A DNA stretch of 58,253 nt from Bacteroidia bacterium (lineage in GTDB: Bacteria > Bacteroidota > Bacteroidia > B-17B0 > Aurantibacillaceae): assembly GCA_025362575.1 (NCBI GenBank), contig JANYIQ010000112.1:1-58253 (forward strand). Reading direction: 5' to 3'. Below are positions 9,397-28,390 of this stretch, piece by piece. How positions within the stretch are numbered: position 1 is the first letter of the stretch; each line of letters starts with the position of its first letter. The translations under genes and the position numbers were made by a program. The notes under the pieces are model-generated. The model was not told the origin of the DNA. It saw nothing but the letters and a program-made list of their open reading frames with translations, and made no database searches.

Positions 9397-10482
9397 ATGT
9401 CTATGCGGAAGTTAGCCCTATTAGCCTGTGTATTGACCATTAACTTTGGTCAGGCTCAGGTTGCAAAATACAGTAACGAATTTTTGAACGTAGGTGTTAG
9501 TGCGCGATCTTTGGCAATGGCCAATGCCAACGTGGCTTCCGTGAACGATGTAACAGCAGGTTATTGGAATCCGGCTGGATTATTGAATCAAAGTTGCAAC
9601 ATTCAGTTGGGTTTAATGCATGCCGAGTACTTTGCGGGAATTGCCAAATACGATTACATGGCAGCTTCTAAGCGCATTGATAGCAATAGCGTGGCAGGCA
9701 TTTCCTTTATCCGTTTTGGGGTAGATAACATTCCAAATACATTGGATCTTGTGGATGCAAACGGAAATGTAGATTATTCAAGAATAAAATCCTTTAATGC
9801 TGTGGATGCTGCAGTATTACTGTCGTATGCAAGAAATATTCAAAAAATAAAAGGGCTTAATTTGGGCGGAAGTTTTAAAATAGTCCGCCGTAAACTTGGA
9901 GATTTCGGTGGTTCTTGGGGCTTTGGTATGGATCTGGGCGCCACTTACAATTATAAAAAATGGCGTTTCGCGGCCATGGGTAGAGATATTACAGGAACCT
10001 TCAATGCGTGGACCTATAATCTTTCCGATGATGCAAAAAATACTTTTGCAACTACAGGTAACGAAATACCAAGTAATTCAGTTGAAGTTACTGTTCCTAA
10101 ATTAATATTAGGGGCAGCAAGAACATGGATGGTATGGAAAGACAGAATTTCGATCCTTGCGGAAGCAAATTTTGTAAATACATTCGACGGGAAGCGTAAT
10201 ACTGTTATCAAGACAAATGTTTGGAGCATGGAGCCTGTTGTAGGTACTGAGATCGGATATAAAGGTGTTGTATTCTTAAGAGGAGGTATTGGTAACATTC
10301 AAAAAGCATTAACAGCAAAAGGCGATTCTTATACCACCACCTTTCAGCCGAATATTGGAGCAGGTATCAAGTATAAAATATTTGCATTGGATTATGCTTA
10401 CACTGATATCGGAGATCGCTCCATCGCCTTGTATTCCCATATCATCTCACTAAAGATCGACATCAATAAAAAACCCAAGTGA
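9397..10482 (+). CDS. PorV/PorQ-family outer-membrane protein of the type IX secretion system
   Basis: After a signal peptide (about 1-20, ending GQAQ) the mature protein starts KYSNEFLNVGVSARSLAMANANVASVNDVTAGYWNPAGL, split here only by family comparison: the YSNEFLxxGVxARxLxM and NDVTAGYWNPAGL blocks are the PorV/PorQ signature of a FadL-like beta barrel. PorV shuttles T9SS cargo from the translocon to the sortase PorU. The stop overlaps the GTG start of the PorU2-like gene, so the two are translationally coupled and probably form a shuttle/sortase complex. Whether this is the canonical PorV or a paralogue paired with PorU2 cannot be decided from this window. Confidence 0.85.
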   Translation: MSMRKLALLACVLTINFGQAQVAKYSNEFLNVGVSARSLAMANANVASVNDVTAGYWNPAGLLNQSCNIQLGLMHAEYFAGIAKYDYMAASKRIDSNSVAGISFIRFGVDNIPNTLDLVDANGNVDYSRIKSFNAVDAAVLLSYARNIQKIKGLNLGGSFKIVRRKLGDFGGSWGFGMDLGATYNYKKWRFAAMGRDITGTFNAWTYNLSDDAKNTFATTGNEIPSNSVEVTVPKLILGAARTWMVWKDRISILAEANFVNTFDGKRNTVIKTNVWSMEPVVGTEIGYKGVVFLRGGIGNIQKALTAKGDSYTTTFQPNIGAGIKYKIFALDYAYTDIGDRSIALYSHIISLKIDINKKPK

Positions 10483-13400
10483 AGAAAGTAGTCTATAGTT
10501 TATTATTACTTGCTTTAAGTTTTTCAGTTAAAGCACAGGTTTATAGTAACGAATGGATCAATTATTCGAACAAGTACTTTAAATTTCAGATCGCAAAAAC
10601 CGGTTTTTACCGCATTGATGCCTTTACACTTGCAAGCAGCGGTATACCTTTAGCTTCTATCAACCCAAAGAATTTTCAGTTATTCATAAAAGGAAAAGAA
10701 CAATCCATTTACATTAAAGGTGAAGCAGATAATGTTTTTGATCCCGGTGATTACATCGAATTCTTTGCAGAAAAAAATGACGGTTCATTTGATTCAACAA
10801 TGTATTATAACATTTCGTATTTGCCGAATCGTTATGTTTCATTATTCAATGATACCATTTCCGGTTTCATTACATGGAATAATTCAACTACAAATAAAAG
10901 GTTGATACTGGAAACAGATACAGCATCAGCTTTGTATACTCCTAAACCTTATTTTTATACGGATAACATTAACACCAGCAGAGGTGCCTATAATTATGTT
11001 GAAGATCAATATTCCAATGCAAGTGATTCACGGTATACACAGGCAGAAGGTTTAGGAATTGGATTGAATAAAGGAAGCTTGTCAAATACAGGTATTACTA
11101 CTCTAAATATGTATACAGCCGCAGCACTACCTGTTTACATAAAAATAAATTTGTCGGGAGCAAGTATTGATAATACCGTTGCAAAAGATCACGAATTAAA
11201 AGGAGTTATCTATAATGGAGCTTCTGCACCTGTAACTTTGTTCGATACTATTTTTTCGGGCTACGTTCCGCTAAAATATAGTTTTTCTGTTCTATCCAAT
11301 ACTTTAGGAAATGCTTCCAACATAGAAGTGTCATCTATCAGCAATTCAATTTTCACAGGAGTTTCCAATTTTTCGGTGCTTCATTACATTTATTATAAAT
11401 ATCCTCAGTTGCCAACCTGTGCCGGACTTTCTTCCTACAAATTGTTTATTGACGATGATATTTCGTTTCCTAAATCGTATTTAAAATTAACAAGTGTAAA
11501 TACAGGAACCACCAACACGGTTTTATTTTACGACATCACTAATAAGAAAAGAATTGCTACCGTCATCAATTCAGGGAACACAAAAATACTTGTTCCGAAT
11601 TCAGGTGGTCAGAAATTATGTTATTTAAGTGCTGAGTCGGATGTGATCAATATTCCTAAATTGTATCCTGTGAATTCAAGCGGATTCTTTGTGAATTATA
11701 AGTCGCCTCTTGCTGATTCAGCTTTTGTGATCATTACACATACTAAATTGTTAACAGAAGCTAATCAGTACAAGTCCTACCGACAGTCTTTGGCCGGAGG
11801 GTCTCATTATGTGATTCTTGCCAATATAGATGATCTGTACGATCAGTTTGGATACGGAATTTCTAAGCATCCTTTGTGTATCAAAAACTTCTGCCATTAT
11901 TTAATTGATAGTTTGCCTTCGCCGCCTAAGAATTTATTTGTGATAGGAAAGGCCGTACAGCATCGCGAGCTTTTAACAGAGCCCGGCGCCTGGGGCAGAT
12001 GCTTGATCCCTGCAATGGGTGTAGCCCCTTCCGATAATTTATTGACCTCTGCAATTAAAACGAATAACTGGATAACTCCTGAAATCCCAATTGGCCGATT
12101 GGCTGCCCAGATACCCTCGGATGTTACGGCTTATTTGAACAAGGTAATTGTTCATGAACAACCTGCTTCGAGCTCCGCTTCAGGTTCGGAGTGGAGAAAA
12201 CATGTTTTGCATTTTGCAGGCGGAACGGACATCAATCAGCAGCTTTTGTTTCAGGCCTATTTAGGAAATTACAAAGCAGTGATAGAAGATACCTTGTATG
12301 GTGGTAAAGTTTATGATTTCAAAAAAACGACAACTGCGCCAATTCAAATTACGATCAGTGATTCGGTAAAGAATCATTTTAATAATGGAGTAGGGCTGGT
12401 TTGTTTTTTCGGACATGGTTCCTACAGCGGATTTGATCAGGCTATTGATGATCCTAATGTTTATAATAATGCGAACAAGTATCCCTTCATGATCGCTAAC
12501 TCTTGTTTTTCAGGAAACATACATACTTTCAATGTTGCCAGTAGTTCAGAACGCTTTGTTCTCATAAATCAAAAAGGAACAATTGGATTTTTGGCGGCAG
12601 CCTCACTTGGATTTGTATCGAATCTTAATAAATATACTCAGGATGTTTATGACGATATTTCAAAATATAAATACAATAAGAGTATTGGAGAAATTGTAAA
12701 AGATGTATGCTACAAATCTTCATTGACCTCTGATAATATTCAGTATTTAACGGCACTTGACATGACTTTGCACGGCGATCCTGCCGTTAAAATTTCCGTG
12801 GGAAGGTTACCGGATTATTATATTGATAACAGCAGTGTAAGCTTCGATACTAAAAAATATGTGGATTCCGTTGGGATCTCAGTGGATATCACTAATCTTG
12901 GAGAAGCCATTAAGGATTCTATCATTGTAAGAATAGAGCGTTATTTCCCGAATAATGATTCTATGACCTTCTTTAAAAAGATAAAAGCACCTTTATACAA
13001 ATCGCTTCTGAAATTCTACACGTTGATCGATTATACCAGGGGAATTGGGTTAAATAAATTCAAAGTTTATGTAGATGCTTACAACGGGGTTACTGAATTG
13101 TACGAAACCAATAACAGTACTACAGGCACCGTTGATATATTTATTCAAGGTGGCGATATTGTGCCTGTGTACCCTTATAAATACGACATTATACCTAAAA
13201 CGCCCACAGTTACGCTAAAAGCATCAACTTCAGATCCGTTTGCTTCTGCAAGAAATTATAAACTGCAATTGGATACCTGTGATGCATTTACCAGTCCAAT
13301 TCAAACTACTTTAATTCAGAGTACAGGTGGGGTAGTGGAGTGGACCGTTAACTTGCCTTTTGCGGATAGTACAGTGTATTACTGGAGAGTGAGTAAAGAT

Positions 13401-15497
13401 TCAACCGGTCCGGGCAATACTTATGTTTGGCGCGAAAGCTCGTTTCAGGTGATCGGTAATAAACACGGTTGGGGACAAGCACATTTTTTTCAATTCAAGA
13501 ATGATGGTTATCAGTTTGTGAAATTTAAGAGACCTTCGAGAAGATTTGAATTTGAAAATGATGTTACTTCTTTAGATGTTCGCACGGGATTTTTGTCGGC
13601 AATTGCTTTTGATCAAATAACGTATTCATTGAATGGCTCGGTAAAACATACCTGGAATTGCGGCTGGAATGGCTGGACGATAGCGGTATTTGATTCTATT
13701 ACAGGTAAGCCATGGATTGCCAATGCCGGTCAAACTGTTGCCGGACCGGGTGTTTGGGGTAATTGTAATTGCGTGCCTTCGGCGCAAGCTCTTTCGGCTT
13801 ATGATTTTGGAGGTGCAAATTATTGCAGTATCCCAACCTGGCAACCTGAGCTCTTAACGTTTTTGAATGCCATACCTCCAAATAATCATGTGCTGGCCTA
13901 CTCGGCCCAAAATCATAATTCTTCAAGCTTTTCAGCTCCTTTGCAAAATGCATTCAAGAGTTTTGGCAGTGCCCAGATCATGAATGTAAAAGACACCGTT
14001 CCTATTATAATTTTTGGATGGAAGGGATTGGCGAGCGGACTGGCGCATGAAGTTGTTGGCGCGAATAATTCTAGCATTATAAATTTAACGGACAGCATTA
14101 AAACCAGATGGAACAATGGATACATTGCTTCTGAAATAATTGGACCTTCTTATAAATGGAATAGTTTACACTGGAAATTAGGAACATTGGATGTATCTGG
14201 AGGAGATACTACTGTTTTAAAAGTGGTAGGTATTAAAGTGAATGGTCAGCGCGACACACTGGTTACGTTTACAAAAGACAGTTTGAATGTTCTGGATCTG
14301 TATAATTATGTAAGTTCTTCTACGTATCCCTATTTACAGTTAGTAGCTTTAATGAAGGATAATGTTAACCGTACATCGCCTCAGTTAAAGCGCTGGCAGG
14401 TATTGTACGATGAGGCTCCTGAATGCGCTATTAATCCTAAAAAAGGATTTAAGGTATTGAACGATACCTTGCAGGAAGGTGACAACGTTATCTTTTATTT
14501 GCCTGTAGAGAATGTTGGAACTGTTCCATTTACTGATAGCCTTGTGTTCACCTATTATATTGAAGATGCAAATCGGGTGATGCATCCTTTACCTCAGAAA
14601 TTAAAGGCAAAGCCGTTTAATCCTGCCGCGGTTATTATAGACACCTTAAAAATTAATTCGTATCAATACCCAGGTAATAATGCATTGTGGATCGATATCA
14701 ATCCGCCGCAAAACAGCAGATACCAATTTGAGCAGTATCATTTTAATAATGTGGCGCGTTATGCTTTTGAAGTGAGTCGTGATATTACGAATCCTTTATT
14801 GAATGTAACTTTCGATGGTGTTCGTATCATGAATGGGGATGTGGTTTCAGCTAAACCGAATATATTAGTGAGTTTAAAGGATGAAAATAAATTCTTAGTA
14901 TTAAATGATACAGGAGCTTTTACAGTGTATCTGAAAAAACCGACAGATACTCAGGAACAACGGATTTATTTTGGTAACGGTTTACAGTTTACACCTGCGC
15001 AATTACCAAGTAACTCTGCTAAAATTGCCTACAATCCTGCTTTAGCGATCGATGGTAAGTATTTGCTTATTGTGCAGGCAAAAGACCGCAGTAATAACGT
15101 TTCGGGAGCTGTTGATTACAGGATCACCTTTGAGGTAGTAAACAAACCAAGCATTACACAGATCATAAATTATCCAAATCCGTTCAGTACAAGCACACGC
15201 TTTGTATTTAATTTAACGGGAAGCGAAGTGCCTGAAATGTTCAATATACAGATCATGACCATTACAGGAAAAATTGTAAAAACGATCATGCGTGACGAGT
15301 TAGGTATGTTGCACATTGGCCGTAACATTACGGAATATGCATGGGATGGTAAAGATGATTTTGGTGATAAATTAGCAAATGGCGTTTATTTGTATAAAGT
15401 TCAAACTAAATTGAACGGACAAAGTATAGAGCATCAATCAAGCGAAGCGGACCAGTATTTTACTAAGGAGATAGGTAAAATGGTAATTATGCGCTAG
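10479..15497 (+). CDS. PorU2-like T9SS sortase, gingipain-type C25 peptidase
   Basis: The 1672-residue protein has a signal peptide (1-19, ending SVKAQ), a beta-rich N-terminal region, and a C25 catalytic domain with FFGHGSY (catalytic His646) and ANSCFSG (catalytic Cys676), as in gingipains and PorU. Ig-like and beta-rich modules follow, and the C-terminus (YPNPFSTSTRF, AWDGKDDFGDKLANGVYLYKV) resembles a FlgD/T9SS-type C-terminal domain. Canonical PorU is shorter, about 1100-1300 residues; the length fits the class called PorU2. PorU removes sorting domains and attaches cargo to A-LPS at the cell surface. The start GTG overlaps the porV-like stop. The TAG stop sits exactly at the left edge of a cassette-like insertion. 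Confidence 0.82.
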   Translation: MKKVVYSLLLLALSFSVKAQVYSNEWINYSNKYFKFQIAKTGFYRIDAFTLASSGIPLASINPKNFQLFIKGKEQSIYIKGEADNVFDPGDYIEFFAEKNDGSFDSTMYYNISYLPNRYVSLFNDTISGFITWNNSTTNKRLILETDTASALYTPKPYFYTDNINTSRGAYNYVEDQYSNASDSRYTQAEGLGIGLNKGSLSNTGITTLNMYTAAALPVYIKINLSGASIDNTVAKDHELKGVIYNGASAPVTLFDTIFSGYVPLKYSFSVLSNTLGNASNIEVSSISNSIFTGVSNFSVLHYIYYKYPQLPTCAGLSSYKLFIDDDISFPKSYLKLTSVNTGTTNTVLFYDITNKKRIATVINSGNTKILVPNSGGQKLCYLSAESDVINIPKLYPVNSSGFFVNYKSPLADSAFVIITHTKLLTEANQYKSYRQSLAGGSHYVILANIDDLYDQFGYGISKHPLCIKNFCHYLIDSLPSPPKNLFVIGKAVQHRELLTEPGAWGRCLIPAMGVAPSDNLLTSAIKTNNWITPEIPIGRLAAQIPSDVTAYLNKVIVHEQPASSSASGSEWRKHVLHFAGGTDINQQLLFQAYLGNYKAVIEDTLYGGKVYDFKKTTTAPIQITISDSVKNHFNNGVGLVCFFGHGSYSGFDQAIDDPNVYNNANKYPFMIANSCFSGNIHTFNVASSSERFVLINQKGTIGFLAAASLGFVSNLNKYTQDVYDDISKYKYNKSIGEIVKDVCYKSSLTSDNIQYLTALDMTLHGDPAVKISVGRLPDYYIDNSSVSFDTKKYVDSVGISVDITNLGEAIKDSIIVRIERYFPNNDSMTFFKKIKAPLYKSLLKFYTLIDYTRGIGLNKFKVYVDAYNGVTELYETNNSTTGTVDIFIQGGDIVPVYPYKYDIIPKTPTVTLKASTSDPFASARNYKLQLDTCDAFTSPIQTTLIQSTGGVVEWTVNLPFADSTVYYWRVSKDSTGPGNTYVWRESSFQVIGNKHGWGQAHFFQFKNDGYQFVKFKRPSRRFEFENDVTSLDVRTGFLSAIAFDQITYSLNGSVKHTWNCGWNGWTIAVFDSITGKPWIANAGQTVAGPGVWGNCNCVPSAQALSAYDFGGANYCSIPTWQPELLTFLNAIPPNNHVLAYSAQNHNSSSFSAPLQNAFKSFGSAQIMNVKDTVPIIIFGWKGLASGLAHEVVGANNSSIINLTDSIKTRWNNGYIASEIIGPSYKWNSLHWKLGTLDVSGGDTTVLKVVGIKVNGQRDTLVTFTKDSLNVLDLYNYVSSSTYPYLQLVALMKDNVNRTSPQLKRWQVLYDEAPECAINPKKGFKVLNDTLQEGDNVIFYLPVENVGTVPFTDSLVFTYYIEDANRVMHPLPQKLKAKPFNPAAVIIDTLKINSYQYPGNNALWIDINPPQNSRYQFEQYHFNNVARYAFEVSRDITNPLLNVTFDGVRIMNGDVVSAKPNILVSLKDENKFLVLNDTGAFTVYLKKPTDTQEQRIYFGNGLQFTPAQLPSNSAKIAYNPALAIDGKYLLIVQAKDRSNNVSGAVDYRITFEVVNKPSITQIINYPNPFSTSTRFVFNLTGSEVPEMFNIQIMTITGKIVKTIMRDELGMLHIGRNITEYAWDGKDDFGDKLANGVYLYKVQTKLNGQSIEHQSSEADQYFTKEIGKMVIMR

Positions 15498-17021
15498 TTA
15501 TGCGGCATGCTAGGACAACAACCAAACAGACACTATGAGTAGACTATTAACCTTGTTTTTATTACCAACTTTTCTTTACGGACAAATAGACACTGCTAAT
15601 GTACTAGACCAACGAGTAGAGAAAATAATTTCCGATTGGCAAGTTCCCGGTTGTGCAGTTGGTATAATTAAAAATGGGAAATTAATTTACGCTAAAGGAT
15701 TTGGCTATCGAGACCTTGAAAACAAACTGCCAGTAACGCCAAATACATTATTTCCAATAGCATCAAACTCAAAACTATTTACGTCTACAGCTATTGGTAT
15801 GGTTGTTAATGACAATAAACTAGAATATGATAAGCCAATAAAATCAATTGTTCCAGAGATCGAGTTTAAAAATCAAAACTTAAATAGCAACATTACATTA
15901 CGTGATTTGTTATGCCACAGAACTGGAATTTCAGGCAATGATGCTATATGGTATGGTTCAAACTTTTCAAGACCAGAAGTATTTGCGCGTATTAAGTATT
16001 TAGAGCCTGTTGCAGAACTTAGAGATGGCTTTGTATACTCTAATTTTATGTATATAGCTGTTGGAGAGATTATAAAAATAAAAACAGGAAAAACTTGGGA
16101 GGAATATTTAACGGAAAACATATTTAAACCATTGTCAATGTCTAGTACTGTTTTTTCAATCGAAGAAATTGAAAAAACTTCTGATTTCGCTAAACCATAT
16201 AAAACTGATTTTATACAAAAAAACAAAAAGGCAATTGGATATTATAGACAAACTCAAGCGTCAAGGCCTGCAAATGGTATAAATTCAAACGTAATTGATT
16301 TATCTCATTGGGTTATTTGTCAATTATCAAAAGGCAAATACAATAATTTTGAAGTAATTCCAAGTTCTGTAATTCAAGAGACAATGAAACCTTTTAATAT
16401 TAGTTCAAATTCAATCAGAGATAAAGAATTATCCTATGTATTATATGGCATGGGAAGAACTATGACTACTTATAAAAACCATTTTATGACCGAACACGGT
16501 GGCGCAATAAATGGTTTCAGGTCACAAATTACTTTATTTCCTGACGATAGTTTAGGTATTATTATTCTTACCAACTCAGCTGACCATAAAATAACAAGCT
16601 ATTTACAACTTGAAATTGCAGATGTGCTATTAGGACTAAATAAAACTCAATGGCATGAACGTGTTTTTGAAAGAACAAAAAAACAATTTGAAAATCAAAT
16701 AGAATCAAATTTAAATAACCCCACAAAAGAAAATATTAAACTGTCAAAAACTTTAATTAATTATACTGGTACATTTGAGCATCCAGCATATGGTATAATT
16801 GAAATAAAACTAATAAACAAAAAATTGAATTTTTCTTATAAAATATTCAACGAGCCTATAACACAAATTAGTCTTGACAAATTTGAAACATCTTTTAATG
16901 ACCAATTAGGCAGTTATACAATTACATTTAATACAAATACTCAAAGTATTATTGACAACTTGACGTTAGAGTTTGAAGGCGTTGTAGAAACATTTGTGAA
17001 AAAATAGCACGACCGCATAAC
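15497..17021 (+). mobile_element. Cassette-like insertion bracketed by a 9-bp inverted repeat
   Basis: GTTATGCGG at 15497-15505 and CCGCATAAC at 17013-17021 are perfect inverted repeats around one gene. The left copy starts on the last base of the porU2 stop codon, and the right copy lies six bases after the hydrolase stop. The enclosed gene is visibly more AT-rich than its neighbours. Single-gene units between GTTATGC/GCATAAC-type boundaries recall mobile gene cassettes. No recombinase is present, and the repeats match the integron core consensus only loosely. Confidence 0.5.
15535..17007 (+). CDS. Secreted serine hydrolase of the class C beta-lactamase fold
   Basis: The 490-residue protein has a short signal peptide (about 1-16). 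The catalytic motifs are SxxK as S77-N-S-K80, the YxN motif as Y168-S-N170, and HGG at 321-323, which replaces the KTG triad, as in class C/esterase-type enzymes (PF00144). A C-terminal domain (about 390-490, starting YTGTFEHPAYG) is of the DUF3471 type often found behind such enzymes. Substrate may be a D-amino-acid peptide or an ester; lactamase activity cannot be claimed. It sits alone inside an inverted-repeat bracket, with AT-rich codon use unlike adjacent genes, which suggests recent acquisition. Confidence 0.87.
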   Translation: MSRLLTLFLLPTFLYGQIDTANVLDQRVEKIISDWQVPGCAVGIIKNGKLIYAKGFGYRDLENKLPVTPNTLFPIASNSKLFTSTAIGMVVNDNKLEYDKPIKSIVPEIEFKNQNLNSNITLRDLLCHRTGISGNDAIWYGSNFSRPEVFARIKYLEPVAELRDGFVYSNFMYIAVGEIIKIKTGKTWEEYLTENIFKPLSMSSTVFSIEEIEKTSDFAKPYKTDFIQKNKKAIGYYRQTQASRPANGINSNVIDLSHWVICQLSKGKYNNFEVIPSSVIQETMKPFNISSNSIRDKELSYVLYGMGRTMTTYKNHFMTEHGGAINGFRSQITLFPDDSLGIIILTNSADHKITSYLQLEIADVLLGLNKTQWHERVFERTKKQFENQIESNLNNPTKENIKLSKTLINYTGTFEHPAYGIIEIKLINKKLNFSYKIFNEPITQISLDKFETSFNDQLGSYTITFNTNTQSIIDNLTLEFEGVVETFVKK

Positions 17022-17245
17022 GGGGCAGTTGCGTCAGCGGGCGGAAGTGAAAGTTTTTTGTTTACATTTTGCCCCCTTCGGGGAAATGATTATTTTTATG
17101 TAAACAAAAAAAGAGGCAGCGGTGAGCAATTAATTTTGTTTGGTCGGTTAAGGACACAGGAGTGTTCCAACCCCGCCGAACGCAAGCCCCGAAACCGATA
17201 TAATTACTTGGAAGTATCTTGAAAACTGAAGCTAATTTTATTTTA
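17022..17245. repeat. Palindromic tail of the cassette-like insertion
   Basis: No gene is seen here. A perfect 14-bp inverted repeat TTTTTTGTTTACAT (17054-17067) / ATGTAAACAAAAAA (17098-17111) encloses a smaller hairpin CCCC-TTC-GGGG (17073-17083). The base composition and G-rich motifs around 17021-17050 (GGGGCAGTTGCG, GCGGGCGGAAGTG) and CGCAAGCCCCGAAACCG around 17181 are unlike the flanking genes. The stretch probably belongs to the inserted unit, and its palindromes may serve recombination or transcription termination. Confidence 0.5.
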
Positions 17246-17434
17246 TCAGCCGATGTTACCAAATATCTCAAGTATTTCTTCCCTGTATTGGTTTCCGAAG
17301 GTAGTTAAACACCAAACTTTTAAAAGCGTTTTTTCATCAGGCTTAACCCAATTAACCGCCTTGATCAATTCTTTGCGAAAAAGTGCTTTATCAAAACTCA
17401 CCTTTTCTAAGATCTTTTTACTCAAATCAAGCAT
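17246..17434 (-). CDS. Small conserved Bacteroidota protein of unknown function
   Basis: The protein is 62 residues long and mostly helical, with the pattern LSKKILEKVSFDKALFRKEL and LLKVWCLTTFG. I recognise this as a small conserved hypothetical family of Bacteroidota, but no function is known to me. It has no signal peptide or membrane segment, so it is probably cytoplasmic. Its 3' end abuts the tail of the cassette-like insertion, so the last residues (GNIG) could have been changed by that event. Confidence 0.62.
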   Translation of the reverse strand: MLDLSKKILEKVSFDKALFRKELIKAVNWVKPDEKTLLKVWCLTTFGNQYREEILEIFGNIG

Positions 17435-17526
17435 AGCAATTGATTTTAATAAGTTTATAACGCAAATTTAGACCTAATATTGCGATCATTTTTAGCCTTT
17501 AAGAATTTTTAACCTAGTGTTAATTT

Positions 17527-17937
17527 TTAAAACAAGAAGAAAAAATAAACAGCGGCCCATTTTACCGGTATGTCTTTGGCTTTTCCAATAACCTCATTTT
17601 TTTCGTTTTGCACGGTTCCGTCCATCATTATGTAGCCAATGGTTTTTTTATTTTCGTCTTGTACTAAACCGGTAACGTCAACATACCCAACAGTTTTATT
17701 ACTTTCATCTGCTATCTCGCCACCACTGCGTATCCAGCCAATTATAACAGAGTTCTTTCCGGTAACCATGCCGTCTTTCTTGAATTTCCCGGCAGGTTTT
17801 GAAGCCTCGTCTAAAACGGTGCCATCGGGTTTAATGTATCCTACAATGGTTGTGCCATCGGGGCCTTGCATGGCTTGAGAAAAAAAGTTATTTGATAAAA
17901 ATAGAAAACCGGCAAGTATGAAGATCTTTTTAAACAT
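17527..17937 (-). CDS. Secreted small repeat protein, 5-fold beta-flower type
   Basis: A signal peptide spans about residues 1-21. The mature part consists of five repeats of roughly 17-18 residues with the pattern (V/I)G-(Y/W/K)-aromatic or charged-x-x-(D/G)G-x-(V/I)-x-(D/G)E-x-x-K: GYIKPDGTVLDE, GKFKKDGMV, GWIRSGGEIADE, GYVDVTGLVQDE and GYIMMDGTVQNE. A hydrophobic C-terminal end (WAAVYFFFLF) follows. This matches the small Bacteroidota proteins named 5-fold beta-flower proteins from their structure. Their role is unknown. It stands as a single gene downstream of a conserved small protein and close to mqo. Confidence 0.72.
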   Translation of the reverse strand: MFKKIFILAGFLFLSNNFFSQAMQGPDGTTIVGYIKPDGTVLDEASKPAGKFKKDGMVTGKNSVIIGWIRSGGEIADESNKTVGYVDVTGLVQDENKKTIGYIMMDGTVQNEKNEVIGKAKDIPVKWAAVYFFFLF

Positions 17938-17978
17938 ATATACAATTTAGATCAAAAAATTCACAAAACCCATTATTG

Positions 17979-19526
17979 TTATTCCAATATTTCAACAACA
18001 GTGTCTAATTGAAGAAGATCCGAAGTTTTTTTCCGGACGCTTTCACAAAACTGAGCATCATCATTAAGTTTTTTACCGTAAGATGGGATCATCTCTTTAA
18101 GCTTGGCTTGCCACAAAGGAGAATCAACGCGATCTTTGAAACATTTTCTCAAAACATCGAGCATTACAGAAGCAGAAACCGAAGCTCCCGGAGAAGCCCC
18201 TAATAATGCCGCAATCGAGCCATCGGCTGCACTTACGATCTCTGTTCCAAACTCCAACACACCGCCGCCAACATGATCATGATCTTTTTTAATGACCTGA
18301 ACGCGCTGACCTGCTTCTTCCAATTTCCAATCTTCCATTTTTGCTGATGGAACAAATTTCTGTAATGCTTCTAAACGTTCTTCCGGTGTTTGACGTACCT
18401 GATCGATCAAATATTTTGTCAACGGAATATTATGCAAACCCACCGACATCATTGGGAGTAAATTGCTTACCTGTAAAGAGCCCGGAAGATCCATCAATGA
18501 ACCATGTTTCAAAAATTTAGTTGAGAATCCGGCGAAAGGTCCGAATAGCAACGCGCGTTTTCCATTAATGATACGTGTATCTAAATGCGGCACCGACATA
18601 GGCGGAGCGCCAACTTCGGCAAGGCCATAAACTTTTGTGGAGTGTTGTTTAATGACTTCATCATTTTGACATACGAGCCATTGTCCACTCACCGGAAAGC
18701 CACCAAAACCATTGCCTTCAGGAATGTTTGCGTCTTCTAATAAGGGTAGAGAGCCACCGCCTGCACCAATAAAAATAAATTTAGCTTCAACGGTTCGGGT
18801 CTCATGTTTCACAAGATCTTTTGCTTCCATTTCCCAATGCCCATCTGATTTTCTTTTTTCCAAAAAATTAACCTGATGTTGCATGTGCATTTTAACGCCG
18901 GGTAATGAAGCCAGGTGGGCAAATAGTTTTCGGGTCAGTTCACCAAAATTCACATCCGTACCAAGATCCACTCTTGTAAGCGCTACTTTATCCTGAGAAG
19001 TGCGGCCTTCCATCATTAAAGGGATCCAGGCTTTCAGTAAGTTTTTATCTTCAGTATAGGTCATATCCTTGAATAAAGGATGTTGGCTTAATAACTCAAA
19101 ACGTTTCTTTAAATAATTAACGTTATGTTCTCCCCACACAAAACTCATATGCGGAACAGAATTAATAAAATGCTGAGGATCTTTTATATAATTTTTTTCT
19201 AATAAGTATGACCACAATTGTTTTGATACTTCAAATTGCTCAGCAATTTTAAATGCTTTGGATGTATCAATATTTCCACCTTCTTTTTCAGGAGTATAAT
19301 TTAATTCACAGAAAGCCGAATGTCCGGTACCTGCATTGTTCCATGCGTCTGAACTTTCGCCTGCAACAATATCAAGGCGTTCGTATATTTCAATTTTAAG
19401 ATGCGGCTCTAATTCTTTTAATAGAATGCCAAGGGTGGCACTCATAATTCCGGCTCCAATTAAAATAACATCAGGATGAGAAGTAGGCTCATGATGAATG
19501 TGGAATAAATGCGACATGGTAGACAT
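17979..19526 (-). CDS. mqo: Malate:quinone oxidoreductase
   Basis: This 515-residue FAD enzyme oxidises malate to oxaloacetate and passes electrons to the quinone pool at the inner face of the cytoplasmic membrane. The N-terminal dinucleotide motif VILIGAGIMSATLG lies at residues 20-33, followed by the Mqo-specific block AGESSDAWNNAGTGHSA (55-71). The segment GASPGASVSA near the C-terminus is also typical. Length is normal for the family. It is preceded by its own intergenic region (19527-19588), so it appears to be a single-gene unit. It would replace or support a soluble malate dehydrogenase in the TCA cycle. Confidence 0.97.
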   Translation of the reverse strand: MSTMSHLFHIHHEPTSHPDVILIGAGIMSATLGILLKELEPHLKIEIYERLDIVAGESSDAWNNAGTGHSAFCELNYTPEKEGGNIDTSKAFKIAEQFEVSKQLWSYLLEKNYIKDPQHFINSVPHMSFVWGEHNVNYLKKRFELLSQHPLFKDMTYTEDKNLLKAWIPLMMEGRTSQDKVALTRVDLGTDVNFGELTRKLFAHLASLPGVKMHMQHQVNFLEKRKSDGHWEMEAKDLVKHETRTVEAKFIFIGAGGGSLPLLEDANIPEGNGFGGFPVSGQWLVCQNDEVIKQHSTKVYGLAEVGAPPMSVPHLDTRIINGKRALLFGPFAGFSTKFLKHGSLMDLPGSLQVSNLLPMMSVGLHNIPLTKYLIDQVRQTPEERLEALQKFVPSAKMEDWKLEEAGQRVQVIKKDHDHVGGGVLEFGTEIVSAADGSIAALLGASPGASVSASVMLDVLRKCFKDRVDSPLWQAKLKEMIPSYGKKLNDDAQFCESVRKKTSDLLQLDTVVEILE

Positions 19527-20006: not shown

Positions 20007-20564
20007 ACTCCGCACTTTAGTGCGGAGTGTTATGTGAAAAAGAAAGGGCTTTAGCCCTGACCTGTTGCCTTGTATTCTTTAAGAAAACTTTCGTACTCTT
20101 CCATAAAGGTAGTTTTTTTATGATGTTCTTCCTGATTATTTATATAAGCCTTGGCGTAATCAATTTGAGATTCACTTACACTCGAAGCATAATATTCATC
20201 AGCCCATTCAAATTTTTCAGTTGTTATTTTGTTCTTATTAATCCAAAAAGCAGATTCTCCTTTTATTAACTGAAGAACTTTAGAAATACTCATTTCTGTA
20301 TTTAAACCAAACAAACAATGAAGATGATCTTGATATCCATTAATTGAAAGAATAAAAATTTCTTTTTGTTTTGCGTTTTCTTTTATATGATCAATTATTT
20401 TGTTTTTTATTTCTTTGGTTAAATAAGGATATCTGTTTTTTGTTCCCCAAACTGCATGAATCCAAACTTTTACAAACGCCATTTTAATATCTCTTTAGTT
20501 ATACTTATCAGGGCTAAAGCCCTTGTTGTTTCTATCTGTTATACTCCGCCCTAAAGGGCGGAGT
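20007..20564 (-). mobile_element. IS200/RAYT-like element with nested hairpin ends
   Basis: One single-domain transposase gene is enclosed by two pairs of hairpins. On the low-coordinate side these are ACTCCGCAC-TTTA-GTGCGGAGT (20007-20028) and AGGGCT-TT-AGCCCT (20045-20058). On the high-coordinate side these are AGGGCT-AA-AGCCCT (20510-20523) and ACTCCGCCCT-AA-AGGGCGGAGT (20543-20564). Thus both sides carry the same two hairpin types in mirror order. IS200/IS605 elements and REP-associated transposases recognise such hairpins as single-stranded DNA. Confidence 0.75.
20051..20482 (-). CDS. Y1-type (HUH) transposase of the IS200/RAYT group
   Basis: The 143-residue protein starts MAFVKVWIHAVWGTKNRYP, as TnpA-like Y1 transposases do. 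The HUH metal motif is HLH at 53-55 (GYQDHLHCLFGL). The nucleophile tyrosine is most likely Tyr113 in AYINNQEEHH, with Gln117. The domain should nick and join single-stranded DNA at hairpin ends. The stop codon lies inside one end hairpin, as if the gene and ends evolved together. The protein appears complete, so the element may still be mobile. Length and motif fit both IS200 TnpA and short RAYT proteins. Confidence 0.9.
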   Translation of the reverse strand: MAFVKVWIHAVWGTKNRYPYLTKEIKNKIIDHIKENAKQKEIFILSINGYQDHLHCLFGLNTEMSISKVLQLIKGESAFWINKNKITTEKFEWADEYYASSVSESQIDYAKAYINNQEEHHKKTTFMEEYESFLKEYKATGQG

Positions 20565-23044: not shown

Positions 23045-25318
23045 TTAAGCACTTAACAAAGCAATACATTTATCAATTTCACGCACCAATTCGTTGATCT
23101 GCTTCTTCATGCCGGCTTTTTCATTTCCACTGCCATCAGAAGACTTAGCTAATATAACATTCTTTCTGTGATTATTCAAATCATTAACATTAATGCTTTG
23201 TGAATCAATCTCTTGCGAAAGACTTCCGATGCAATCGTTCATCTTTAACAGCTGATTGGTCATTTCTTCCTTCTCATTTAACAGGCCTAATTTTTCATCA
23301 TTTAAAGCGTCTATTTGTTTAAATAAGCGGTCGATGTACTCATCCTGTTCTGCATTGTTTTTAGTTGATGACTTTAAAGTTGTCATCTCATTTTCATACC
23401 AGGTAATTTTTGAATTCAGGGTTTCAATATCTGTTTTGAAATTATCGGTAATGCTTTGAAGTTCGTTTAACTGAAGTGACAAACTTTCTTTTTCGGAATT
23501 AACGCTGTTGAATTTGTTTTCCCACTCCGTTAATTGTTCTGAAATTGAAGAAGAAGATGCTAATTGAGCAGCTAATTCAGAAACTTCTGATTTCAACTGA
23601 GTGTTCTCATTCAGTAAACCGGCATTATTTGCAGTTAAGGCGGTGATCTCAAAATTCTTGGTATCTAAAGCATCTTTAAGATCAACCAATCTTCCTTTTT
23701 TAGTATTGCTTACTTCTTCAAGTTCTGCTTTTAGTAATGCCAATTCTGCTTCCTGAGCTTCAACTTTATCTTGAGCTAAATCAATTTCATTGATCAAGCT
23801 TGTGTTTTCTGTAAGTAATTTCTGGAATTCTACTTGTTGAGCAGATAATTGCTGTTGTGTAGAAATTTCTAATTCAGATTTAAAGCTTTCAAATGTTCCG
23901 GCTGTTTCGCTGTTAGCTAAATTTAATTTTTCTATCTCACCATTCAATCTTTCGATCTCTGATTTAGTGTAACCTAATTCTGCTGATTTAGAAGAAACCG
24001 ATGATGTTAACTCTGCAATTGAATTGTTCTTTAATTCCAGTTCAGCTTTTAATTCAGAAACAGTTTCGCTTAATTTGCTCAATTCGTTATTCAACGACTG
24101 TACTTGCTCACTTTGCGATTGCTGCTGAATGCTTTTGTAAGTTTCGAATTCAGAAGTTAAGGTATCATGTTTTTCATTTTGAGAAGCGATCTCGCTGTTC
24201 TTAATGTCAATGTCACGGGAAAGGTCTTCGATCTTTGTGTTCTGCTCATCAATATGGAACACCAGTTCGCGGATCTTTTCTTTGAAGTGTTCGTTCTCTA
24301 AAACAAATTTGCTAAGATCTTCAGTTAATTTGCTGTTCTGACTGTTGGCATGTATCAATGTATTTGATAAACGCTCTTCATATTCAGCTTTGATGCTTTC
24401 GTTCTCGGTAGCCGCTAAAGAGATCAACATGTTGATCTGTGTTTCCTGCTCATCAATTAAACTTACTTCTTTATTAGTATAAGCTAAAGTTAATTCTTCA
24501 ACCGTTGAATTTAATCTTGATTCGAAATCCGATGACTGAGAATCTAATTCATTTCTTAAAGAAGCTAACTGAGATTCAAAATTTGCGTTACTTTCGGCCT
24601 CCTGCTTATTAAAGGTATCAACCAAACGTGCTAATTTACCTTCGTACTCATTCTTTAAAGATTCGATCTCGGTTGAATTTAAACTCCAGATCTCAGCTAA
24701 TTTAGTTTCGTAACTGCTGGTTAAGGTATCAAGTTCCTCAGTATATTCTGCTTTTAATAAAGTAATTTCAGATTCGTGAGTGGCCGACAGGTCTGCTTCT
24801 TTTTCAGCCATCATTTGGGTGAACGAATTGATCTTTTGATCGTACTCTTCACGTACACCCATTTCGCGGTAGTGTGCACCTGAACGTAATTCTTCAATTT
24901 GTTTTCCTAATTCTGTTCTTACTGCCTGAATTTCTTCGGCAGAAGTATTTTTTAACGAAGCAATTTTTTCTTCGTACTCACCGGCTATCTCATTTAAACG
25001 GGTGTTTAAATTTTCAATCTCAGTTAAGTAAGAAGCAATTTCTTCCTGCTTAGCATGTAGTTGATCTTTTATCGTGTTACGTAGATCTTTGAACGAAGTT
25101 AATTCGTTCTTGTAATTTAAGTTATCACGTTCCATTACGGTCATCTTAGTATTTAAAACATCAATGGTAACCTGCAAACGCTTGCAGTCTTCATCGCGTT
25201 CTATTAACTGATTACGGTAATCACTTAACGATCGTTTTAGTTCGTTAAACTCTTTGCGTAATAGCACATCAGTGTCTAAAACTTGCTGTAATTCTGATTT
25301 TAAATTGTCTACGTTCAT
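23045..25318 (-). CDS. Very long coiled-coil protein upstream of zapA
   Basis: The 757-residue protein is almost entirely predicted coiled coil: Glu, Lys, Leu, Ser and Asn rich with heptad leucines, no signal peptide, no membrane segment and few Pro or Cys. The last 20 or so residues, KKQINELVREIDKCIALLSA, resemble the end of the short (about 100-residue) coiled-coil protein that I recall sitting directly upstream of zapA in other Bacteroidota. This gene occupies that place but is several times longer. It is probably a ZapA-linked division scaffold, by position only. SMC-like ATPase motifs are absent. Confidence 0.75.
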   Translation of the reverse strand: MNVDNLKSELQQVLDTDVLLRKEFNELKRSLSDYRNQLIERDEDCKRLQVTIDVLNTKMTVMERDNLNYKNELTSFKDLRNTIKDQLHAKQEEIASYLTEIENLNTRLNEIAGEYEEKIASLKNTSAEEIQAVRTELGKQIEELRSGAHYREMGVREEYDQKINSFTQMMAEKEADLSATHESEITLLKAEYTEELDTLTSSYETKLAEIWSLNSTEIESLKNEYEGKLARLVDTFNKQEAESNANFESQLASLRNELDSQSSDFESRLNSTVEELTLAYTNKEVSLIDEQETQINMLISLAATENESIKAEYEERLSNTLIHANSQNSKLTEDLSKFVLENEHFKEKIRELVFHIDEQNTKIEDLSRDIDIKNSEIASQNEKHDTLTSEFETYKSIQQQSQSEQVQSLNNELSKLSETVSELKAELELKNNSIAELTSSVSSKSAELGYTKSEIERLNGEIEKLNLANSETAGTFESFKSELEISTQQQLSAQQVEFQKLLTENTSLINEIDLAQDKVEAQEAELALLKAELEEVSNTKKGRLVDLKDALDTKNFEITALTANNAGLLNENTQLKSEVSELAAQLASSSSISEQLTEWENKFNSVNSEKESLSLQLNELQSITDNFKTDIETLNSKITWYENEMTTLKSSTKNNAEQDEYIDRLFKQIDALNDEKLGLLNEKEEMTNQLLKMNDCIGSLSQEIDSQSINVNDLNNHRKNVILAKSSDGSGNEKAGMKKQINELVREIDKCIALLSA

Positions 25319-27437: not shown

Positions 27438-28328
27438 CTAACTAAACTTCTCTAACTTCTTCAGCTCCTCAACTTTTTCGGGGTATCCAAGTTTTTCGTA
27501 AGAGTAAACTAAGTTACTAAGAACACGCTTCACAATTTCGAGGTTGCTGCAAGGCAGGTAGTACTTGTTCTCCGGCTCAATGTTGAGCTGCTTTAGAAAA
27601 GAATCAATGTCATCCTGATTAAAAATTAATCCTTTACTAAAAGGGTTAACGTAAAACAAAATGTTATCGGATAAGGTTTTATGAGTGGTATCGTATAAGT
27701 TGGCGTAATCGTTCACGTAAGCCAGTACAAAGTGCTGCGGCAGATTTACACCGTAAATAGGAATGTCGAGCTCTTTACAAACCAAGGCATAAACAATGCT
27801 TAGCATTACCGGATTTCCTTTTTTAGTTTCAAGCACCACATTTAAAAAGGAGTTCTGAGGCGCATGGTAATTGGTAATGTTACCACTGAACTGATGAACC
27901 TCAAATAAAATATGATTAATGATCTTTACTTTTTCCAGTCCTGTAAGGTCGTCGTGTATCTCCAACCAAACATCGTGCTTTATTAACTGTATCTGTTTTT
28001 TGATCTTAGCTTCGTCTAAGTCAGGATACTGATAACGGGCCACCAAACAAATGCCTTTAAAAAGATCATCCTGTTCGTGTTCGGCCCAGTGTTTAAGGGC
28101 TTTTTGAAGGGCCTCGAAATTAATGTCGTGAATAATGCCTTCAATGCGTTTTTGCATCACCACATCAAAGCTGTTCTCCCATGCAGTTTCCAAATGAGGA
28201 ATTGCTGCGGCGCCAAGCATAATGAATCTGCTTTTTACCTGTGTGTAGATGGTCTCATCGGGGTCGTCGAGCAGAGTAATAAGTGCGATTACCTCTTTTA
28301 AGTTCATTTGATTTTTGCCGACTTTCAT
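27438..28328 (-). CDS. SirB1/transglutaminase-like core protein
   Basis: The 296-residue protein matches the SirB1-type family (Transglut_core2): NHILFEVHQFSGN, KGNPVMLSIVYALVCKELDIPIYGVNLPQHFVLAY are the core blocks, split here across the fold, with His in PQHF and Asp in ANLYDTTH. The N-terminal 120 residues are helical. No transglutaminase cysteine is apparent, so it may be inactive or have another activity. Function is not established. ATG at 28328 is chosen over the TTG nine bases upstream; an internal ATG at 28307 is also possible. It lies upstream of no clear operon partner. Confidence 0.78.
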   Translation of the reverse strand: MKVGKNQMNLKEVIALITLLDDPDETIYTQVKSRFIMLGAAAIPHLETAWENSFDVVMQKRIEGIIHDINFEALQKALKHWAEHEQDDLFKGICLVARYQYPDLDEAKIKKQIQLIKHDVWLEIHDDLTGLEKVKIINHILFEVHQFSGNITNYHAPQNSFLNVVLETKKGNPVMLSIVYALVCKELDIPIYGVNLPQHFVLAYVNDYANLYDTTHKTLSDNILFYVNPFSKGLIFNQDDIDSFLKQLNIEPENKYYLPCSNLEIVKRVLSNLVYSYEKLGYPEKVEELKKLEKFS

Positions 28329-28390
28329 GCCTAACAAAAATAGAGTATGATTAGAACTGAATTTTAGTGGGTTGTTATACTTTTAAACAA

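Follow-up and report, generated by a model that had tools for sequence, protein, structure and literature searches.

A solitary integron-type gene cassette behind porU2 in a Bacteroidia bacterium, and a Bacteroidota recombinase family that may move such cassettes

What kind of element places a single serine hydrolase gene, bracketed by a 9-bp inverted repeat, directly on the stop codon of a porU2 gene? The question is raised by a 58,253-nucleotide stretch of DNA from a Bacteroidia bacterium of the Aurantibacillaceae (GenBank assembly GCA_025362575.1, contig JANYIQ010000112.1, positions 1 to 58,253; the window hereafter). A preliminary description of the window, made from the sequence alone, had recognized in this locus the layout of a one-gene mobile cassette. 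That layout is borne out by the recurrence of its tail and by a rule of matching cassette ends, both described below, and the cassette is real and of integron type. Our reading, to which we assign a probability of roughly 0.8, is that a circular cassette was joined to the porU2 stop codon by a tyrosine recombinase of the Bacteroidota that does not possess the additional domain (patch III) of the integron integrase IntI. The boundaries listed here were placed on the model of the integron crossover, G^TT, and the exact position of the cut is putative.

15498..17197, forward strand: gene cassette in its linear integrated form, starting at the TT of the left core and ending at the right-junction G (putative ends)
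15497..15505, forward strand: R'-like core GTTATGCGG at the start of the cassette, with a G common to the porU2 stop codon
15535..17007, forward strand: AT-rich serine hydrolase gene (490 aa; Beta-lactamase family PF00144 with DUF3471)
17013..17021, forward strand: R''-like core CCGCATAAC, the reverse complement of the same cassette's start
17022..17196, forward strand: attC-like tail, predicted to fold with both cores into one hairpin
17022..17033, forward strand: L''-like arm, GGGGC..TTGCG
17054..17111, forward strand: inner hairpin of the variable terminal part, with 14-bp arms at 17054-17067 and 17098-17111
17181..17190, forward strand: L'-like arm CGCAAGCCCC
10479..15497, forward strand: porU2 (peptidase C25), its final bases being the presumed target of the insertion; the stop is retained

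The hydrolase is the sole gene between GTTATGCGG and CCGCATAAC, as the preliminary description had it, and the first G of the left copy is the last base of the porU2 stop codon TAG. The 14-bp inverted repeat reported in the tail is also present and perfect. However, the tail had been placed after the one-gene unit and the feature extended to 17215; the tail belongs inside the unit as the cassette's own recombination site, and the right end is corrected to 17197. The reconstituted site of 217 nt has a predicted folding energy of -45.1 kcal/mol with DNA parameters, compared with a mean of -28.4 (standard deviation 3.5) for shuffled sequences (z = -4.8), and none of 200 shuffles was equally low. 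A search of positions 15000-18000 against Rfam at E<=0.1 gave no match.

The window's tail is one of many in its genome. A BLAST search with positions 17008-17225 identified nine places at E<=2.1e-11, the window counted, together with paired short matches on contigs C243 and C197. A second, shorter tail of about 82 nt, first seen on contig C282, occurs at 20 places (E<=0.01). The two types together are found on 16 contigs, or 18 with C243 and C197. The tails are flanked by TAAC and, usually, by GTTA, while the bases beyond vary from gene to gene, and they terminate cassettes of unrelated genes, part of them in arrays. These matches and those in relatives agree with the earlier expectation that similar boundary wording recurs around unrelated genes in Bacteroidota. 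The boundary sequences are thus found elsewhere and the hydrolase is not an invariant neighbour of porU2 in relatives; the opposite outcome had been named as an argument against a mobile unit. Searches with the tail of the window kind (type A) against plasmid and phage records gave no match, so that no carrier is known.

As a rule, the start of a cassette matches its own end. We located sites with a finder that requires TAAC[AG], a GTTA preceded by an A-rich spacer, and inner arms that pair, ignoring the cores beyond TAAC and GTTA, and took the intervals between consecutive sites in the own genome and its relatives as cassettes (69 in all). All of the first 8 bases pair with the cassette's own end in 61 of the 69, and with the end of the previous cassette in only three; random re-pairing (n = 500) gave a mean of 4.3 matching cassettes and a maximum of 11. 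Pairing by position is 91–100% at positions 1-9, 6% at position 11 and 67–80% at positions 12-15. At least one failure is explained, as that of locus L140 was traced to an intermediate site (1411-1491) missed under a stricter threshold. Complementarity of this kind is expected if each cassette was once circular with both cores meeting, as in integrons. A 9-bp inverted repeat within 58 kb is not unusual by itself, and it is this recurrence across cassettes that places the window's repeat beyond chance. The 61 cassettes also share a direction: the longest open reading frame is in sense in all 61 and antisense in none, covers a median of 81% of the cassette, and begins at a median of 48 nt after the core. 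Arrays running in one direction, each cassette with its own core pair, are an integron feature.

It is extremely improbable that the tails are instead dispersed hairpin repeats of the repetitive extragenic palindrome or terminator type, spread by a Y1 transposase, with genes lying between them by chance. The tail is a dispersed repeat and a Y1 (IS200-like) transposase gene lies 3 kb from the cassette (20051-20482, reverse strand), but such repeats would account neither for a matching pair of ends around each gene nor for the uniform sense orientation, and the sites cluster in one direction behind a single recombinase family.

The sites share a covarying structure. Of the 69 cassettes, 65 fall into three tail sizes, represented by 11, 30 and 23 non-redundant rows; four lie outside these sizes and one near-identical row was left out. 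Consensus folds were computed with RNA parameters for the rebuilt circular form, in which the own end, the tail and the own start are joined. All three classes consist of an outer stem of 4–5 bp, a small internal loop, a 9-bp R stem closing with TAAC/GTTA, a 1 x 5 loop (A versus AAAAC or AAACC) and an L stem. Between 89 and 94% of the cells are paired, and 12, 18 and 16 pairs, respectively, show at least three standard pair types. The own start folds better than a random start in 63 of the 69. With its covarying R and L stems and the mismatch at position 11, the site has the imperfect hairpin with unpaired bases that is typical of attC. It does not have the letters of attC, for which the part of PMC12901181 available gives the core consensus RYYYAAC / GTTRRRY and the crossover. 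The window's cores read GCATAAC / GTTATGC, each side one position away, and other cassettes deviate as well (GTTATAA, GTTATAG). The poor fit to a standard integron site noted in the preliminary description is therefore correct for the letters and misleading for the architecture, which is integron-type.

What enzyme would act on these sites? The preliminary description reported no recombinase, and for the window this holds. Beyond it, arrays in relatives adjoin a recombinase and an array in the own genome adjoins a remnant of one. The search of the own genome with the integron integrase model TIGR02249 gave sub-threshold matches only, the best being this C-terminal remnant on contig C282, with 63% identity over 70 aa to a member of a recombinase family found in relatives. 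It is followed by an attI-like stretch and by consecutive cassettes of unrelated genes, encoding a DUF4468 protein, a protein with a Por secretion tail and a BamE-like protein. One end of C282 carries the core genes pyrG and rimM and a tRNA-Ser. Neither pyrG nor rimM was found at 40 relative loci, which speaks against a fixed genomic location for the platform. Of 32 genomes (the own genome, G036 as the source of the query, and 30 others that have tail matches, many of these short), 29 have a recombinase that matches that of G036 at E<=2e-54 and is distinct from XerC and XerD. Other candidates for the enzyme were set aside. The protein on contig C148 is XerD by TIGR02225, and neither that contig nor those of the contig-edge fragments on C139 and C94 has a tail match at E<=0.01.

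The cassette sites lie behind this recombinase family. Around 20 of its loci the finder identified a site at 12 with a loose threshold and at 11 with a strict one; the latter hold 46 sites, compared with 2 sites at 2 of 20 Xer-type loci drawn from the same 32 genomes. A scan of public genomes was then represented by the best 80 loci among the matches listed, which include Flavobacterium limicola, F. palustre, F. saccharophilum, F. denitrificans and F. psychrophilum as well as Algoriphagus, Pedobacter and Cyclobacterium. There, 76 sites are downstream and co-directional and four are spread over the other three quadrants. Sites occur at 32 of the 80 loci; where the 3' flank reaches about 1.5 kb or more, they occur at 27 of 46. 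Flank lengths are approximate, since a fixed position served as the gene end for most loci. Block-shuffled sequence (single bases shuffled within 200-base blocks) gave 1 site, porU loci none and the window none, the window's own site being skipped because it ends in GATA and not GTTA. A further set of 20 recombinase loci has sites at 10, with 19 of 22 sites downstream in the forward direction; this set overlaps the 80 (the contigs of L336 and L337 equal those of L217 and L221 in length), and one member, L349, falls below the 465-bit line used below. At 29 of the 80 loci (L211, L213, L215, L216, L230, L241, L246, L254, L260-L262 and others) the contig stops no more than about 1.1 kb from the recombinase, gene ends again being approximate. 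Such ends are expected if arrays break assemblies, in which case the site counts are too low.

Most of these arrays begin at a similar distance from the recombinase gene. A first site was present at 36 loci, or 35 distinct ones with L190 and L214 counted once as duplicates, and 21 of the 35 have a matching start of the first cassette at +92 to +103 from the recombinase stop; four of these have a second candidate start as well. The cores before the first cassette read, for example, TATATACAA, TATAAACAA or TATAAGCTA, followed by GTTA, and inverted and direct repeats are frequent upstream of them by eye. The core on the own contig C282, ...AAGCATATAAGCTA|GTTAGG, scores above all G positions of the window against the attI-like core. 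In the TATATACAA|GTTA-type core of these 21 loci and of C282, the arrays thus have the attI beside the integrase gene that is expected of integrons, and the core is probably the recombination site.

The family is distinct from IntI and from XerC and XerD. In an alignment of 58 recombinases, the spacing between the arginine of box I and that of HxxR is 93 residues in 23 of 23 members of a main clade, 92 in all five members of a second clade and 92–93 in four other rows, compared with 134 in 16 of 16 IntI and 99 in 10 of 10 Xer proteins. The IntI additional domain is missing from the family. Seven of its recombinases match TIGR02249 in two pieces with 181–210 bits (cut-off 265), while one true IntI matches in a single piece with 442. 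The seven also fall below the cut-offs of TIGR02224 and TIGR02225; with the XerA-type model NF040815 they score 182–229 bits, two exceeding the cut-off of 220, compared with 216 for XerD of the own genome. The tree separates IntI (100/100), Xer (100/100; ten Bacteroidota rows, two rows under 200 aa left out), the second clade (100/100) and the main clade (96/90, with L201). A 100/100 branch divides Xer from IntI, both clades and the other rows, among which the order is not resolved. By fold, the closest solved structures are archaeal Xer 4a8e (Z 24.4, root-mean-square deviation 6.8, 256 aligned), XerA 5hxy_F (Z 20.6, 13.7, 235 aligned) and IntI 2a3v_A (Z 18.9, 6.4, 254 aligned). The recombinase resembles XerA, XerC and XerD in its nearest folds, but differs from them in the tree, in the spacing of 93 versus 99 and in the number of sites beside its loci. 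The AlphaFold2 model (mean predicted local distance difference 87.6, predicted template modelling score 0.55) has an N-terminal alpha/beta domain at residues 1-75 followed by core-binding and catalytic domains, and the matches to solved folds cover residues from about 98 onward.

The profile of the family, with five candidates scored in each genome, matches 110 of 392 genomes of the phylum at E<=1e-80. With a line at 465 bits, chosen by eye, 34 of 392 remain; 17 of the 34 are of the same class and 17 of others, and one copy is broken by stops. True IntI occurs in 107 of the 392, one of which is labelled as the same class, the same-class total within the 392 not being given. Within the family that includes the own genome, true IntI exceeds the cut-off in one of 87 genomes, in a search at E<=1e-40, a threshold that could not list the patch-less recombinases. 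This IntI (L108, G029:C26:4401-5408) is possibly foreign to its genome, for which 6% contamination is listed. The type A tail was detected in 31 of 395 genomes of the class, the own included, many by short matches (two candidates scored per genome).

These distributions bear on a rival explanation, namely that the cassettes are ordinary ones moved by a canonical IntI now lost or unassembled, with the patch-less recombinase a bystander. IntI is common elsewhere in the phylum and occurs once in the family, and the finder also identifies sites at IntI loci. Yet only one of the 107 IntI genomes is labelled as the same class, the own genome has no IntI match above cut-off, its platform carries a remnant of the patch-less family instead, and the arrays start directly behind the patch-less recombinase with an attI-like core. 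We regard the canonical IntI as quite improbable here and favor the patch-less recombinase as the enzyme that joins the cassettes.

For the window cassette itself, a cut at G^TT would make the target read ...ATTATGCGCTAG^ATATAATTACTTGG. The porU2 stop is preserved, and the hydrolase starts 37 bp behind porU2 in the same direction. The copy is most readily understood as an insertion at a chromosomal site, attG-like, outside any platform. It could also be the last survivor of a former array at porU2, which is unlikely but has a real chance. The final 10 bases before the cassette outscore 98.2% of the window's G positions against the attI core, and a pair of cassettes on the own contig C287 has a closer attI-like core, reached by 0.084% of positions, and no recombinase match. 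However, the left flank of the window cassette is the 3' end of porU2 itself and is similar in relatives, and the window's contig, C69, has no integrase match; nor did the finder identify a second site in the window. The C287 cassettes (L023 3436-4388) lie behind a peroxiredoxin gene.

The insertion at porU2 by a patch-less recombinase would proceed as follows. A circle of one gene and an attC-like site would fold as single-stranded DNA, the presumed substrate, into a 9-bp R stem, in which GTTAxxxxx pairs with its own complement, followed by an asymmetric loop of 1 x 5, an L stem and a tip that varies. The recombinase would join such circles to the attI directly downstream of its own gene, producing arrays, and occasionally to a chromosomal G. 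At this locus TA^G of the porU2 stop may have been used, leaving porU2 intact with the hydrolase co-directional behind it, where read-through from porU2 could express the hydrolase.

Several results weigh against this account. The own genome holds only the C-terminal remnant of the recombinase, and the own genome, G145 and G431 have tail matches but no long match to the enzyme. No site was identified at 48 of the 80 recombinase loci, including 19 of the 46 whose 3' flank is about 1.5 kb or longer, nor at 9 of the first 20 and 10 of the further 20. The finder is not exclusive to one system, since it also gives 8 sites at 5 of 20 true-IntI loci. Behind porU2, the comparison proposed in the preliminary description was made in 29 relatives: none has the hydrolase there, and no empty site was found. 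The content behind porU2 differs among them and in none are the window's downstream genes within about 1.5 kb of porU2; because this 3' flank is unconserved in all 29, the absence of the hydrolase proves little. The resemblance of the target to attI is weak, as 1.75% of the window's G positions score as high, and an attI-like core was rejected as a general rule for solitary insertions, a rule that other first cassettes do not follow. Finally, compared with its sibling on C282 the window's site is two bases (AC) short between R'' and L'', so that its activity is uncertain and the site may be dead.

The hydrolase matches Beta-lactamase (PF00144, 1.3e-53) and DUF3471 (1e-07). Its GC content of 0.298 and third-position GC of 0.20 are the lowest of ten genes compared, and in codon usage it departs most significantly from the remaining nine (z = 7.8). 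The proposed codon comparison thus singles out the hydrolase as the most deviant gene, but it is weak evidence because porU2 (z = 6.8) and two further genes (27438-28337, 5.6; 23045-25318, 4.5) deviate too. At E<=1e-70 the hydrolase has a match in 26 of 385 sampled genomes of the class, the own included. No other genome from this genus or family is among them, and the top non-self match has 39% identity, a distribution that would be consistent with acquisition from outside.

How does the system compare with integrons? Both have one-gene cassettes in a single orientation, each with its own R'' and R' cores and an attC-like site able to fold. In both, an attI-like core lies immediately next to the integrase gene, and there are long arrays as well as clusters of attC sites lacking integron integrases (CALIN-like). 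The Bacteroidota system differs in that its recombinase is without the additional domain held to define IntI and has an extra N-terminal domain, its cores are GTTA with five free paired bases and not GTTRRRY, R and L are separated by a 1 x 5 loop in the consensus folds, and the main-clade recombinase is read in the direction of its cassettes. Because both the IntI feature and the strict core consensus are lacking, the system is a variant of integrons rather than a member. Solitary insertion of cassettes at attG sites has reportedly been described by Loot et al. in 2024. The window cassette is similar in that it, too, sits at a chromosomal site other than attI or attC. The described cases, as far as the sources seen in part go, involve IntI1, whereas here the event is deduced for a patch-less recombinase, in one genome and with no empty site found.

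Surveys of attC use models built on IntI sites. Integron surveys identify IntI by its extra domain, which is the criterion in the portions of PMC9668308 and PMC2426708 available, while the text seen of PMC8138268 describes the insert as not fully conserved in an integron-like subgroup, yet essential for function. The portion of PMC9024848 (IntegronFinder 2.0) seen gives for Bacteroidetes In0 elements earlier and one complete integron, in Salinibacter ruber; excerpts of PMC8618304 count Bacteroidota among phyla with integrons, and those of PMC12444791 mention attG and CALIN. PMC7370490 does not use the terms Bacteroid or Flavobacter in its main text. Among titles and abstracts, in a coverage that holds few subscription papers and no preprints, there was no report of a patch-less integron in Bacteroidia.

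If our reading is correct, a cassette-capture system is widespread in Bacteroidota, Flavobacterium strains from culture collections included, and a mobile gene pool has been overlooked; the need for the IntI insert in acting on folded attC sites also becomes testable. Somewhat more tentatively, though we lean towards it, this may be a second kind of integron, in which two insert-less lineages on the IntI side of Xer (one read in the direction of its array, the other divergent from it) use folded single-stranded sites to capture cassettes, and for which the insert is dispensable. Another surface, perhaps the new N-terminal domain, would then replace the insert, or the system would predate it.

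A few observations accompany the recombinases. In the second patch-less clade (L193, L194, L203, L208, L209) the arrays are divergent from the recombinase, as in textbook integrons. One family member, L234, lies on a 4.9-kb contig of a metagenome-assembled genome titled Azoarcus sp., named as a betaproteobacterium, where mis-binning is likely. The N-terminal alpha/beta domain of L214 (residues 1-75) shows weak echoes of the Pfam families HARP and DUF5710, far under their cut-offs. Some recombinases (459–467 aa; L109, L284, L287) are longer at the N-terminus, and in L109 the domain looks doubled by eye.

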